A DNA stretch of 51,337 nucleotides, from the NCBI GenBank assembly GCA_025362395.1, contig JANYGK010000083.1, positions 1-51,337 of the forward strand, in the 5' to 3' direction. Shown piece by piece: positions 44,994 through 49,221 of the stretch. The translations under genes were made by a program, and so were the position numbers. Source of the DNA: Bacteroidota bacterium (GTDB lineage: Bacteria; Bacteroidota; Bacteroidia; B-17B0; Aurantibacillaceae). The notes under the pieces are model-generated. The model was not told the DNA's origin. It did no database searches and worked only from the letters and a program-made list of their open reading frames with translations. Within the stretch, counting starts at the first letter, position 1, and every line of letters begins with the position of its first letter.

Positions 44994-45068
44994 GGGAGAT
45001 TAGCTCAGCTGGTTCAGAGCATCTGCCTTACAAGCAGAGGGTCACAGGTTCGAACCCTGTATCTCCCA
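44994..45068 (+). tRNA. tRNA-Val (anticodon TAC)
   Basis: A full cloverleaf: acceptor GGGAGAT with ATCTCCC, D stem GCTC/GAGC, anticodon stem TCTGC/GCAGA around CTTACAA with anticodon TAC at 45029-45031, T stem ACAGG/CCTGT around TTCGAAC. The 3' CCA is encoded (45069-45071). A promoter lies upstream and a hairpin terminator downstream. The reverse strand of its 3' half forms the last codons of the neighbouring recombinase gene. Confidence 0.98.
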
Positions 45069-46623
45069 CCACATTGGATGAGCCGCCTAACAAGGCGGCT
45101 TTCCTTTTTATACCCTCTTCCAAACTCCTTGCTATACTTGTGATTAAACGAATTACCGAATTTACTTTCGAGGTTCGATAATTGCTATTTTCTCTGTCAT
45201 ACAAAATTCCTTCAGGAAATATGATATTTTGGATTTCCATTTTAGCGTGGAATGATGCTTTTTCCCATAATGACGGTAGTTCCAAGCAAATATTAACGTA
45301 CTTCTTTATCTGATTTTCGAGGTTCGATAAATCCAATCGGGTACTTCCGATTTTTTCCTCAATATTGTTCTTCTCCGTTTTATACTTCAACAAAAACTTA
45401 TCGTATAATTCCCTATTTATCTCCTCTTGGATAAACTTTTCCTCTAAAGTCTCAATCTTCTTAACCACATCTGTCAACTGAGCCTTAAACAGCTTTACAT
45501 TATCCTTATTGCTATCGTTAGTTTTTACAATATATTTAACAAACTCATCTTTTATTGGCTCAATATGTTTTTTAAGGACTTCAAAATCTTTTAGATAGTC
45601 CTTAAAAAGTAGGTTAAGTATTTTTGCGCTTTTATTGCATTTGCAACCTTTCTTATTGCACTTGTAATAGTACAATCCTTTTGCCTTAACAATATAACCT
45701 GCGAATGCAGTACCACAAGTACCACATTTTATAAAATTCTTGAGCGGTGTTTCTTCAAACTCCTTTTTGAATTTTATGTTTTGACGTTTTTTATCGGTAT
45801 TAATTCGCAGGAACAATTCTTCCGAAATTAATTTTTCGTGCTTACCTTGAATTACTTTACCGGGCAATAAATTATGTCTGATTATTCCGCAATAAAAAGG
45901 ATTACGAAATATCTCCGTAATTTGTTGGTGAGAAACTTTAACACCCGCTGCGTGTAAACGCTCTAATATTTCAAGGTTGTTTAAATTATCATCAGCTTTC
46001 CAATAAAATGCTTTGCGTAATATTTTACCAGTATCATTTACTGTTATTCGTTGTTCTCTATGCTTTGTATATTGGTCGTAACCTAGCGGAGCTTTTTGTA
46101 TCCAGTAGCCTAAATTTAATTTTTCTTTCATTCCTGCCACGCACTTCTCTCTTCTCAAATCATTATCATATTCGCTAAAAATAAATTGAATATTTTGCTG
46201 AAGTTTGCCACTTGATGTTGCGGTATCCGATGGTTGGGTTACCGCATAAATATTAATATTTTCTTTGCGAAGTTCCGATGCAATAAAAATAGCGTTTGCA
46301 CCTGAGCGTGAAAATCTATCAACGCTATAAACCAATATGTAAGAGATTTTTTCTTTACTACGTCTTGCAAAAGTAAGCATCCGAGTAAACTCCTTGCGCT
46401 CATCATTTTTTGCGCTTTCATAAGTACCACCAAAATATGCTATGGTATATAAATTATTTTTTTGAGCGTAATGCTCTATTGCTTTGCGCTGAGTTTCTAA
46501 ACTATATCCTTCTTGTTGTTCTTTTGATGATACTCTAGTATAGATAATGCAATTAGAACCACTTATCCTTTCTGCTGTTTTATTGTTTTTAGCGAATTGA
46601 ATAAAGTTATTTATGTCGTTCAT
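45028..46623 (-). CDS. Large serine recombinase, C-terminus running into the antisense of tRNA-Val
   Basis: From ATG 46623 the protein has 531 residues. Resolvase catalytic domain: IIYTRVSSKEQ with nucleophile Ser32, and VDRFSRSGANAIF near 101-113. A recombinase domain, a zinc ribbon (KCGTCGTAFAGYIV...YYKCNKKGCKCN) and a coiled coil (about 400-450) follow, which is the layout of integrases/transposases of the large serine type. The last residues, KRKAALLGGSSNVVGDTGF and a few more, are encoded by the reverse strand of the tRNA terminator and tRNA, with the stop codon in the tRNA anticodon loop (45028-45030). The native end was probably changed by integration. A start further up (46671) would overlap the preceding small gene. 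Confidence 0.93.
   Translation of the reverse strand: MNDINNFIQFAKNNKTAERISGSNCIIYTRVSSKEQQEGYSLETQRKAIEHYAQKNNLYTIAYFGGTYESAKNDERKEFTRMLTFARRSKEKISYILVYSVDRFSRSGANAIFIASELRKENINIYAVTQPSDTATSSGKLQQNIQFIFSEYDNDLRREKCVAGMKEKLNLGYWIQKAPLGYDQYTKHREQRITVNDTGKILRKAFYWKADDNLNNLEILERLHAAGVKVSHQQITEIFRNPFYCGIIRHNLLPGKVIQGKHEKLISEELFLRINTDKKRQNIKFKKEFEETPLKNFIKCGTCGTAFAGYIVKAKGLYYYKCNKKGCKCNKSAKILNLLFKDYLKDFEVLKKHIEPIKDEFVKYIVKTNDSNKDNVKLFKAQLTDVVKKIETLEEKFIQEEINRELYDKFLLKYKTEKNNIEEKIGSTRLDLSNLENQIKKYVNICLELPSLWEKASFHAKMEIQNIIFPEGILYDRENSNYRTSKVNSVIRLITSIARSLEEGIKRKAALLGGSSNVVGDTGFEPVTLCL
45081..45110 (+). terminator. Terminator of tRNA-Val
   Basis: AGCCGCC (45081-45087) pairs exactly with GGCGGCT (45094-45100) around a 6-base loop, then a T-rich run. 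It lies 10 bases after the encoded CCA and inside the recombinase reading frame on the other strand. Confidence 0.88.
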
Positions 46624-46624
46624 T

Positions 46625-46858
46625 TTATTTTCTGTTTTCTTGTTGGTATATGTCAAATAATACTCTCGCAAATGTTTTGATTAACTTAATATGTTCTTTC
46701 GCTTCTTCTTCATCCACATCTTCAAAACCATCATAAGCACGCAACTTCTCAATCGTTAATTCCTCTTTAGCTTGTTCAATACCAAATGCACTATTTTCGG
46801 AAAGAACATCTTTATTCTTCCTTGTTGTTTGTTTGATATTTGAAGCACCGGATTTCAT
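46625..46858 (-). CDS. Small acidic protein next to the recombinase, function unknown
   Basis: A 77-residue protein, mainly helical, with an acidic stretch DGFEDVDEEEAKEHIKL. No family recognised. Its stop is one base before the recombinase ATG, so the two are coupled; such small genes beside serine recombinases may act as directionality or control factors, but this is a guess from position. A consensus -7 box lies 67 bases upstream. Confidence 0.6.
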   Translation of the reverse strand: MKSGASNIKQTTRKNKDVLSENSAFGIEQAKEELTIEKLRAYDGFEDVDEEEAKEHIKLIKTFARVLFDIYQQENRK

Positions 46859-47596: not shown

Positions 47597-47890
47597 ATGA
47601 CAAAAATTATTGTTACCACAAAAGATGAATTACAAGAGATAATTCACGAATCTATTAAGTCTGCTATATCCGAACAAAATAGCCAACAGCAATCGGAAGT
47701 GCCCGATAGAATACTATCTCTTAAAGAAACAGCAATCTTCCTAAACCTTGCACAACAAACGGTTTACGGCTTTACATCTAAACAACAAATTCCTTTTATT
47801 AAAAAGGGGAAGAAATTATATTTCCGAAAATCGGAATTAGAAAAATGGTTGTTAGAAGGAAATGTAAAATCCGATTTAGAAGGGAGGTAA
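47597..47890 (+). CDS. Excisionase-type helix-turn-helix protein (HTH_17)
   Basis: The ATG at 47597 gives 97 residues. After a helical N-terminus, residues about 42-91 form the winged HTH of the MerR/excisionase kind: LSLKETAIFLNLAQQTVYGF, then IPFIKKGKKLYFRKSELEKWL. In mobile elements such proteins assist excision or regulate replication genes. The stop codon is embedded in the Shine-Dalgarno-like sequence of the next gene. Confidence 0.88.
   Translation: MTKIIVTTKDELQEIIHESIKSAISEQNSQQQSEVPDRILSLKETAIFLNLAQQTVYGFTSKQQIPFIKKGKKLYFRKSELEKWLLEGNVKSDLEGR
47882..47888 (+). promoter_or_regulatory. Strong Shine-Dalgarno sequence
   Basis: GGGAGGT lies five bases before the ATG at 47894 and overlaps the last codons of the HTH gene. 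Such a sequence is unusual in Bacteroidota, where most starts lack one, and suggests coupled translation or a foreign origin. Confidence 0.6.
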
Positions 47891-48204: not shown

Positions 48205-49221
48205 GTGATTGACTACACACCCATACAAAAAAGCTTGAAACAAGAAGCAAAGGCGGAAGATGTAAATAATCTTTTGTTGGTGCGTTCTGTTAATCAATGT
48301 ATTAATGATGCTAAAAGACGACCAATACCAAAGATGTTGTTTTCCGAATTTTGGCACGAAGAAGAACTTTGTATTTTATTTGCCGATACTAATTTGGGCA
48401 AATCAATATTGGCGGTTCAAATTGCTAATTCCATTAGTAATGGCGAAGCTATCAGAGGTTTTAAATTAGAAGCGAAAAAACAAGTTGTAATGTATTTCGA
48501 TTTTGAAATGAGCGATAAACAATTTGAAAAATGTTATTCCATCAACTATGCGAATCATTATATTTTCGACAATAATTTTTTGCGTATTGAAATCAACCCT
48601 GATTGCACCGATTTTAATGATTTTGAAAAAGCTTTGTTTGAAGCGATTGAAAACAACATTGTCCTGTACGATGCTAAAATATTAATCATCGACAACTTAA
48701 CATATTTAAAAACGCAAGCGACTGAGACCGCAAAAGAAGCATTACCATTAATGAAACGCTTAAAAGAGCTAAAAATAAAGCACAACTTATCTATTCTTGC
48801 ATTAGCGCATACACCTAAGCGAAATTTAATTTACCCTATTACTAAAAACGACCTCGCAGGAAGTAAACACTTATCAAACTTTGCCGACAGCATTTTCGCT
48901 ATTGGCGAAAGCTGCAAGGATAAAAGCCTCCGCTATTTAAAACAGTTAAAAGCAAGAGCAACGGAAGTAGTTTACGATAGTGAGAATATTATTGTTACCG
49001 AAATATCTCAACCTTATAATTTTTTAGCATTTGAATTTGTGGATTTTAGTAATGAGCGAGAACATTTGAAGCAACCAACCGAAAACGAACAGGCTGATTT
49101 AGATGCGTCAATTATTTTATTAAAAGCATCCGAACCACATTTAGCCGACCGTGAAATTGCACGGCAATTAAATACCAATCCAGTTAAAGTTGGTCGAGTT
49201 TTAAAACGTAACAAAGTGTAA
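48205..49221 (+). CDS. RepA/DnaB-like AAA ATPase of a mobile element
   Basis: A 338-residue RecA-fold ATPase (GTG start at 48205). The P-loop is FADTNLGKS (59-67; the usual first Gly is replaced by Ala), the Walker B is AKILIIDNL (about 157-165), and a QAT/ALAHTPK segment follows as in RSF1010 RepA-type helicases. The C-terminus has a helix-turn-helix-like end (ADREIARQLNTNPVKVGRVL, about 312-331). It probably loads on or unwinds the element's origin. The phased GTAACA array begins inside its last codons, next to an AT-rich stretch, as expected for a RepA-linked origin. Confidence 0.82.
   Translation: MIDYTPIQKSLKQEAKAEDVNNLLLVRSVNQCINDAKRRPIPKMLFSEFWHEEELCILFADTNLGKSILAVQIANSISNGEAIRGFKLEAKKQVVMYFDFEMSDKQFEKCYSINYANHYIFDNNFLRIEINPDCTDFNDFEKALFEAIENNIVLYDAKILIIDNLTYLKTQATETAKEALPLMKRLKELKIKHNLSILALAHTPKRNLIYPITKNDLAGSKHLSNFADSIFAIGESCKDKSLRYLKQLKARATEVVYDSENIIVTEISQPYNFLAFEFVDFSNEREHLKQPTENEQADLDASIILLKASEPHLADREIARQLNTNPVKVGRVLKRNKV

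Follow-up and report, generated by a model that had tools for sequence, protein, structure and literature searches.

The window, as we call the whole stretch of DNA analyzed here (51,337 nucleotides), comprises the complete contig G000:C87 and contains a tRNA-Val gene whose 3' half is read in antisense by the gene of a large serine recombinase (LSR), followed by further genes of the element to which the LSR belongs (Table 1). Because the window is the whole contig, the other end of the element lies elsewhere. The LSR frame opens with an ATG at 46623 on the minus strand and stays open to a TAA at 45030-45028 that overlaps the tRNA-Val anticodon (45029-45031) inside the anticodon loop, in agreement with the initial annotation, which had placed the end of the frame there. 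The body of the LSR is intact at this filled site, leaving the catalytic gene unsplit. Its Resolvase (94 bits) and Recombinase (42 bits) domains are both above the Pfam cut-offs, and a putative zinc ribbon, with KCGTCG...KCNKKGC, scores just below its own (22.5 versus 25.3 bits). This domain content resembles that of the Listeria innocua (A118-type) integrase, Bxb1, and PhiC31, and the best matches in a fold search were LSR complexes, at TM-scores that were low (~0.2) with a floppy model. The closest relative of the window, L064 (G066:C26), has an LSR 90% identical and likewise located at tRNA-Val.

Table 1. Positions of the target tRNA gene, the recombinase, and other features of the element in the window.
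Feature	Positions	Strand	Basis
tRNA-Val(TAC), the host gene targeted; still complete after insertion	44994..45071	+	ARAGORN
LSR of the element, 531 aa, tail antisense to the tRNA	45028..46623	-	ORF and Pfam
Crossover core CCAC (on +), tRNA nt 71-74	45066..45069	.	Common to attL and attR; near-identical LSRs part after the core
Host-encoded LSR tail, 13 codons VGDTGFEPVTLCL and stop	45028..45069	-	
T-loop GTTCGA, proposed attB half-site for a zinc-ribbon-like domain	45048..45053	+	On the LSR strand, TCGAAC is at +16 relative to the core; in the attP arm, at +21
Terminator-like hairpin (45076-45104) and T tract (45105-45109), within the LSR coding sequence	45076..45109	+	
77-aa ORF directly upstream of the LSR	46625..46858	-	ORF list
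Small HTH_17/excisionase-like protein, candidate directionality factor	47597..47890	+	HTH_17 at 42.6 bits, above cut-off
AAA_25 ATPase of the element	48205..49221	+	Pfam
ResIII/Helicase_C protein of the element; frame leaves the contig end	49373..51337	-	Listed ORF 51136-49373

Searches of Pfam and NCBIfam gave no match for the 77-aa ORF. The candidate directionality factor matches TIGR01764 at 26.8 bits, under the cut-off of 28.8. Separately, this HTH protein weakly resembles MAD1 of the methylation-associated defence system (51.7 bits, cut-off 80), and the AAA protein weakly resembles MAD8 of the same system (22.8 bits).

The anatomy of the window recurs widely among related LSRs, whose carriers are found in many Bacteroidota, Chitinophaga polysaccharea and Flavipsychrobacter stenotrophus among them. 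We examined 110 LSR loci, of which 30 came from whole genomes (one locus from each of 30 of the 36 genomes, out of 60, with a match, including the window's own as L004) and 80 were genome-contig relatives (the best 80 of 139). Four loci were set aside as duplicates on the basis of identical first 900 nt, three of them true copies and the fourth L138, which has the LSR of L137 at another tRNA, leaving 106 distinct loci. The LSR frame enters the 3' end of a tRNA or tmRNA gene in the same phase and with no earlier stop at 80 of these, window included, and stops within the RNA gene in 65 and past it in 15. At 5 further loci and at L070, the frame meets a tRNA 3' fragment; 2 LSRs (L142 and L108) finish in another tail, 6 loci leave the contig end, 2 meet an RNA gene in a different phase, and 10 LSRs end otherwise, including L072 and L073 at a dispersed repeat, L112, L127, and L133 with earlier stops, and L089 and L093, which resemble decayed tRNA ends. 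An LSR that targets tRNA genes, as had been supposed for the window, is thus what the wider set displays. General integration hotspots do occur at tRNA 3' ends, according to the Islander report (PMC4383910), and LSR genes could in principle merely adjoin such hotspots, with the frame crossing the tRNA by accident. Chance adjacency was rejected given the single phase in 80 loci versus 2 in another; with the fixed positions of core and hairpin and the existence of empty sites, an accidental frame has a negligible probability.

Among the 80 LSRs of the tree set (which differs from the 80 in-phase loci by one row, with L138 in and L008 out), the targets are tRNAs for Leu, Met, Arg, Phe, Ala, Val, Glu, Ser, Asn, and Gln as well as tmRNA, amounting to 18 anticodon/RNA types; alignment A1 holds 39 LSRs. 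The tree requires at least 34 changes of target type, compared to a mean of 47.1 after shuffling (0 of 200 shuffles as low); targets are thus partly inherited yet often switched. The tmRNA cases (L014:1062-1457, stored strand; L106:6615-6988) are entered in the same phase. Two target tRNAs contain an intron according to ARAGORN run with introns allowed, a tRNA-Met of 706 nt (L033:830-1535, stored strand) and a tRNA-Leu of 303 nt (L128:11564-11866), and these are possibly group I introns. The two related LSRs in L072:11568-12465 and L073:11544-11703 lack a tRNA. Their ends fall within a dispersed repeat, GGTGAGC..CGCCGAACCATGAC, and in L072 several further copies of it are close by; here the target has perhaps switched to another GAAC-bearing repeat.

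Outside cellular contigs, a single-protein query of viral contigs found no relative, and an alignment query found one, L242, whose LSR ends in a tRNA-like 3' half. Phage records gave 244 with a match, all below 60% identity and with the top-ranked place at 27.7%, indicating that the LSRs described here are not typical phage integrases.

Near-identical LSRs lying in different tRNA genes part at tRNA nucleotides 71-74, which places the crossover at the tRNA 3' end. L137 and L138, from two different assemblies, have LSRs without a single difference in the last 1200 nt and sit in tRNA-Leu(taa) and tRNA-Leu(gag), respectively; L083 and L092 (97.3% identical LSRs) sit in tRNA-Met and tRNA-Arg; and L113/L115 (98.8%) and L140/L143 (93.3%, last 60 nt identical) each occupy two Leu types. 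Past the core, identity in these four pairs is 0.34-0.46, versus 0.94-0.99 in the same-tRNA control pairs L075/L090, L082/L092, and L129/L139, with same-tRNA controls staying alike past the core even where their LSRs are only 67% alike. The core itself consists of four bases, reading GTGG, GTAG, GTAC, or GCGG on the LSR strand. Of 107 rows in the T-loop table, 18 lack an in-phase T-loop, and 86 of the other 89 have the core G at the reference position, which was set from TCGAAC. Since related LSRs diverge past the core according to the tRNA, the tRNA part belongs to the host, which makes 13 codons and the stop host-written in the window; the earlier estimate of about 27 codons in host tRNA DNA was too high.

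The far end of the element had also been expected to carry a copy of the tRNA 3' end. When the window's genome was searched with the 25-nt tRNA 3' end at up to 3 mismatches, a search that decayed copies escape, as they do the DNA searches, the only match was the tRNA itself, and the far ends carry a native tail instead (see below). The far ends of these elements are without a displaced tRNA 3' fragment, unlike those of Islander-type tDNA islands, because only about 4 bp are shared, and attR has little in common with attL beyond the core. These observations bear on a different crossover point, in the anticodon loop or the T arm, for which the element would carry the tRNA 3' half itself, the tail would be constant, and integration would change nothing. 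The LSR stop codon does lie in the anticodon loop, which is a common crossover point of tyrosine integrases. Crossover inside the tRNA was rejected because near-identical, and in one case identical, LSRs carry different tRNA 3' halves and because a second tRNA-Val 3' end is absent from the 25-nt search of the window's genome; with the dissimilarity of attR and attL added, we regard this location as very improbable and take the crossover to be at the tRNA 3' end.

Uninterrupted target sites exist and, together with the target-switch pairs that part at the core, support the initial annotation's proposal of a chimeric C-terminus made by integration. Genome G032 has no match to the window LSR and is 94-95% identical to the flank of G026:C4 up to the end of tRNA-Ser, its downstream sequence resuming ~27 kb further along G026:C4, as for an empty and a filled site. 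The first 135 nt of this downstream flank align poorly, and for that reason the crossover point in G026:C4 was read from the core, tail, and terminator. In the comparison of G014 (empty) with G066:C26, the tRNA-Val terminator is displaced by 16.2 kb and stands directly before the core (56 nt, 89%). Five genomes of the same genus as the window match its upstream gene and tRNA-Val and then diverge at the tRNA end, each with what is by eye its own terminator-like hairpin after tRNA-Val. A third empty-site comparison, of G026:C2 with G061, fits an insertion between the tRNA and the right flank at a junction that is not pinpointed; the tRNA piece is inverted in G032, and the right flank of G026:C2 was not found in G065.

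The terminator-like hairpin and T tract, which read as such on the tRNA strand, lie between the LSR body and the core and within LSR codons. This feature had previously been taken for the tRNA's own terminator, and it belongs to the element: the hairpin stretch is unchanged in related pairs while the tRNA changes, and it differs from the sequence that follows tRNA-Val in the five same-genus genomes. Folding was stronger than in mononucleotide shuffles (z < -2, median -7.3) for 84 of 86 hairpins, the two failing being L070 and L091; these 86 are the 89 rows less the misassigned L008, L079, and L142. In an alignment (A2) of 35 of the 59 listed hairpins, both partners have changed in 10 of 13 base pairs (7.5 on average after shuffling; 8 of 500 shuffles as high). 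The covariation score reaches 0.420, compared to 0.208 after shuffling (0 of 500 as high), and is still 0.379 when the hairpin is slid by -1, because the stem registers differ. Located immediately after the tRNA, the hairpin would end the tRNA transcript once insertion has displaced the host terminator.

The same junctions point to how so many RNA genes might be addressed. Measured on the LSR strand, TCGAAC (the complement of the T-loop) is separated by 16 nt from the reference base of the tRNA, and in the attP arm its distance to the matching core base is 21 nt. Six places identified independently of the +21 spacing first revealed it: G026:C4, located through its empty site; G026:C2 and G007, located by similarity; and L142, L108, and L113. 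The spacing then became a search criterion, so that later finds are no fresh test of it. According to PMC3783163, the att sites of the Listeria integrase differ in the placement of the zinc-ribbon motif, which is 5 bp nearer the center in attB than in attP. The placement of the T-loop motif 5 bp nearer the core in the tRNA than in the attP arm, seen in one arm and at the sequence level, fits this attB/attP shift of LSRs, and the partner att arm fits it loosely by eye. The LSR may thus read the T-loop as the outer attB half-site; such an address would account for the range of targets, the T-loop being almost the same among all tRNAs. Not all of these LSRs have a canonical zinc ribbon, the instances being L142:9989-11656 and Leu-targeting LSRs: 27 of 88 show no more than one Cys where the zinc ligands would be expected, and almost all of these belong to the Leu-targeting group, making the zinc-ribbon reading of the T-loop less sure for about one-third of the LSRs in the hairpin set. 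In these Cys-poor, mostly Leu-targeting LSRs, the domain may recognize DNA with no zinc bound.

A far end or tandem junction was recognized in 11 of 27 long stretches and in none of the other 16. The far-end junctions hold a tail in frame with the LSR across the core, and the two junctions give different C-termini. We collected 18 such native tails, and a further one comes from the genome of the window itself; their form is V/A-x6-S-N, in most cases followed immediately by a segment resembling [FLQER].(.)(.)D[LF]..[IL]. Tail candidates arise often by chance, and those kept by eye have S-N at the motif and, in addition, a terminator-like hairpin or a homologous tail. Among the 18, L142 and L108 follow a whole LSR and may be tandem junctions; L113-left, G069C1, G075C20, and G024C33a follow an LSR-type hairpin, as in tandem insertions; and G023C6 has no clear hairpin before it.

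For the window itself, the far end was sought via the genes downstream of tRNA-Val in G005, and nothing was found by this route. The tail in its genome lies at G000:C18:17344-17422 (VEETMPESNEIIKDLARIQHVKFL, 79 nt) and is 94% identical to that of G066, with the likeness beginning exactly at the core. The last 853 nt of the helicase gene on the same contig overlap the window's end at 91.9%, an identity low enough that the tail may belong to a sister element; G000:C18 may hold the far end of the window's element or of such a sister. The tail there abuts the decayed end of an LSR that has a hairpin of its own, an arrangement that insertion of one element between the tRNA and an older element would produce. 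Type I restriction-modification genes HsdM, HsdS, and HsdR are also found on this contig (L240, 2171-9105).

The native tail is, judging from sequence comparison, conserved as protein across dissimilar families. In 10 dissimilar tails (mean nucleotide identity 0.39, highest 0.73), chosen from the 18 by leaving out five that carry a long insertion past S-N and three that are near copies, the score per residue pair is 0.109 in frame 0 versus -1.00 and -1.23 in the other frames, and 0 of 10000 shuffles scored as high as frame 0. The pS/pN values of two of four tail pairs are 0.284/0.055 and 0.466/0.110, and those of the other two are 0.209/0.154 (G024C33) and 0.203/0.285 (G055C1), with selection on the tail protein being clear in the first two and weak or absent in the latter. 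The native tail of G007 is frameshifted. An AlphaFold model of L142, a natural LSR with native tail, has a helix at residues 532-554 (pLDDT 70-77) following a linker with pLDDT below 50, the last five residues being at 39 and the overall pTM only 0.42.

The explanation that best accounts for these data draws on the anatomy, phase, att junctions, empty sites, target switching, and native-tail conservation read from the loci, with the circular form, T-loop binding, and terminator activity as its deduced members. In this mechanism, the LSR would insert the element, as a circle, at the 3' ends of tRNA and tmRNA genes, using the near-universal T-loop (GTTCGA) as outer attB half-site and crossing over at tRNA nucleotides 71-74. 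The attP site, its position deduced from both element ends, would lie inside the 3' part of the LSR gene, and the circular form would encode an LSR ending in the conserved native tail (SN...DL..I), predicted to be helical. Integration would leave the native-tail piece at the far end of the element, the LSR frame would then run into the host tRNA in antisense to acquire a short host-written tail, and the hairpin in the last codons of the LSR's own sequence would come to stand right after the tRNA and replace the displaced host terminator. Exchange of the tail on integration is well supported at the DNA level, and we consider all of these steps very probably correct apart from the role of the swap. 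That role is the weakest step: most likely, the swap would be a reversible mark of state by which the integrated enzyme differs from the free one, its capacity to recombine without help probably being reduced.

The conservation of the native tail makes a switch in activity on integration plausible, and it speaks, together with the low pN/pS in two of the four pairs, against a passive tail, where attP would simply overlap the end of the gene and the enzyme would be the same in both states with neither tail mattering. Host tails that vary freely in length (15 of 80 extend past the RNA gene), the variable ends of the native tails, and the low confidence predicted for the linker agree with such passivity, which we rate as quite possible, somewhat short of an even chance. 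Alternatively, the swap could be real and the native tail a degradation tag or autoinhibitory piece, in which case the integrated enzyme would be the more stable or active one. There is a precedent in the BPs repressor, a gene containing attP whose virus-encoded form has an ssrA-like tag (PMC4557955); no common ssrA-like ending was seen by eye among the 18 native tails, and we find this reading unlikely. The full proposal, in which the T-loop serves as a ready-made address for nearly any tRNA or tmRNA and the exchange of a helix for a host tail is a reversible record of the free or integrated state that controls the direction of recombination, is put forward tentatively as one possibility.

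Exchange of an integrase tail on integration is already known, from serine integrases of streptococcal ICEs and from a tyrosine integrase of a Myxococcus phage. The streptococcal rumA ICEs, with a single serine integrase, have their att site inside the integrase gene, and integration exchanges its 3' part and changes the length and sequence of the C-terminus as here; unlike here, these ICEs target a protein gene and exchange its 3' part as well, and the text consulted mentions neither a tRNA target nor an embedded terminator nor a conserved native tail (PMC4701971). In phage Mx8, attP likewise lies in the integrase gene, which gains a new 3' end on integration, with 112 residues replaced by 13 and the activity or specificity of the integrase altered; unlike the present enzymes it is a phage tyrosine integrase with two neighboring attB sites (PMC6070905 and PMC4701971). 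The LSR frame crosses the att core in the manner of these Mx8 and rumA types, for a circle here deduced from both ends. The 5-bp shift between attP and attB is shared with the Listeria innocua integrase (PMC3783163), and with the integration-dependent immunity of mycobacteriophage BPs our system shares an attP within a gene and a C-terminus that differs in the prophage, although the BPs gene is a repressor and not an integrase (PMC4557955).

tRNA targets are used by the archaeal SSV-type integrases. These "suicidal" enzymes resemble ours in having att within the integrase gene, but they are tyrosine recombinases that split into two inactive pieces, whereas here just the tail is exchanged; the review describing them states that self-disrupting recombinases are exclusively archaeal (PMC8371274). 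According to the 2014 Islander paper, serine-family integrases were not known to specify tRNA genes, from which the present LSRs differ (PMC4383910). A large-scale TIGER-based resource pairs serine integrases with att sites and may include unremarked cases of this kind (PMC12884075), and the literature collection we searched contained no report of tRNA-targeting LSRs with this anatomy. What is apparently new is the use of tRNA genes by serine integrases, along with the putative T-loop addressing and the likely built-in terminator.

A whole serine-integrase family targets at least 18 RNA types, and its anatomy suggests how one enzyme can move between unrelated tRNA genes and leave them unbroken: the tRNA is left whole, and the LSR coding sequence would bring a new terminator. 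Island finders that seek a displaced tRNA fragment would miss such elements, and database proteins with "[FIL]EP" tails need care, as those residues can be host tRNA. If the T-loop is the address, insertion next to tRNA genes of choice becomes testable, and the swapping of tails amounts to a natural experiment on direction control in serine integrases.

A further arrangement was observed in L144 (G001:C487:13001-21313), where an intact tRNA-Val is followed by ~6 kb of other genes and then by a tRNA-Val 3' half with the last LSR codons, the latter pair being 97% identical to the window. The 417-aa ORF beside this 3' half is a tyrosine integrase; apparently this tRNA hosts two elements, one of tyrosine type and, behind it, one with an LSR.
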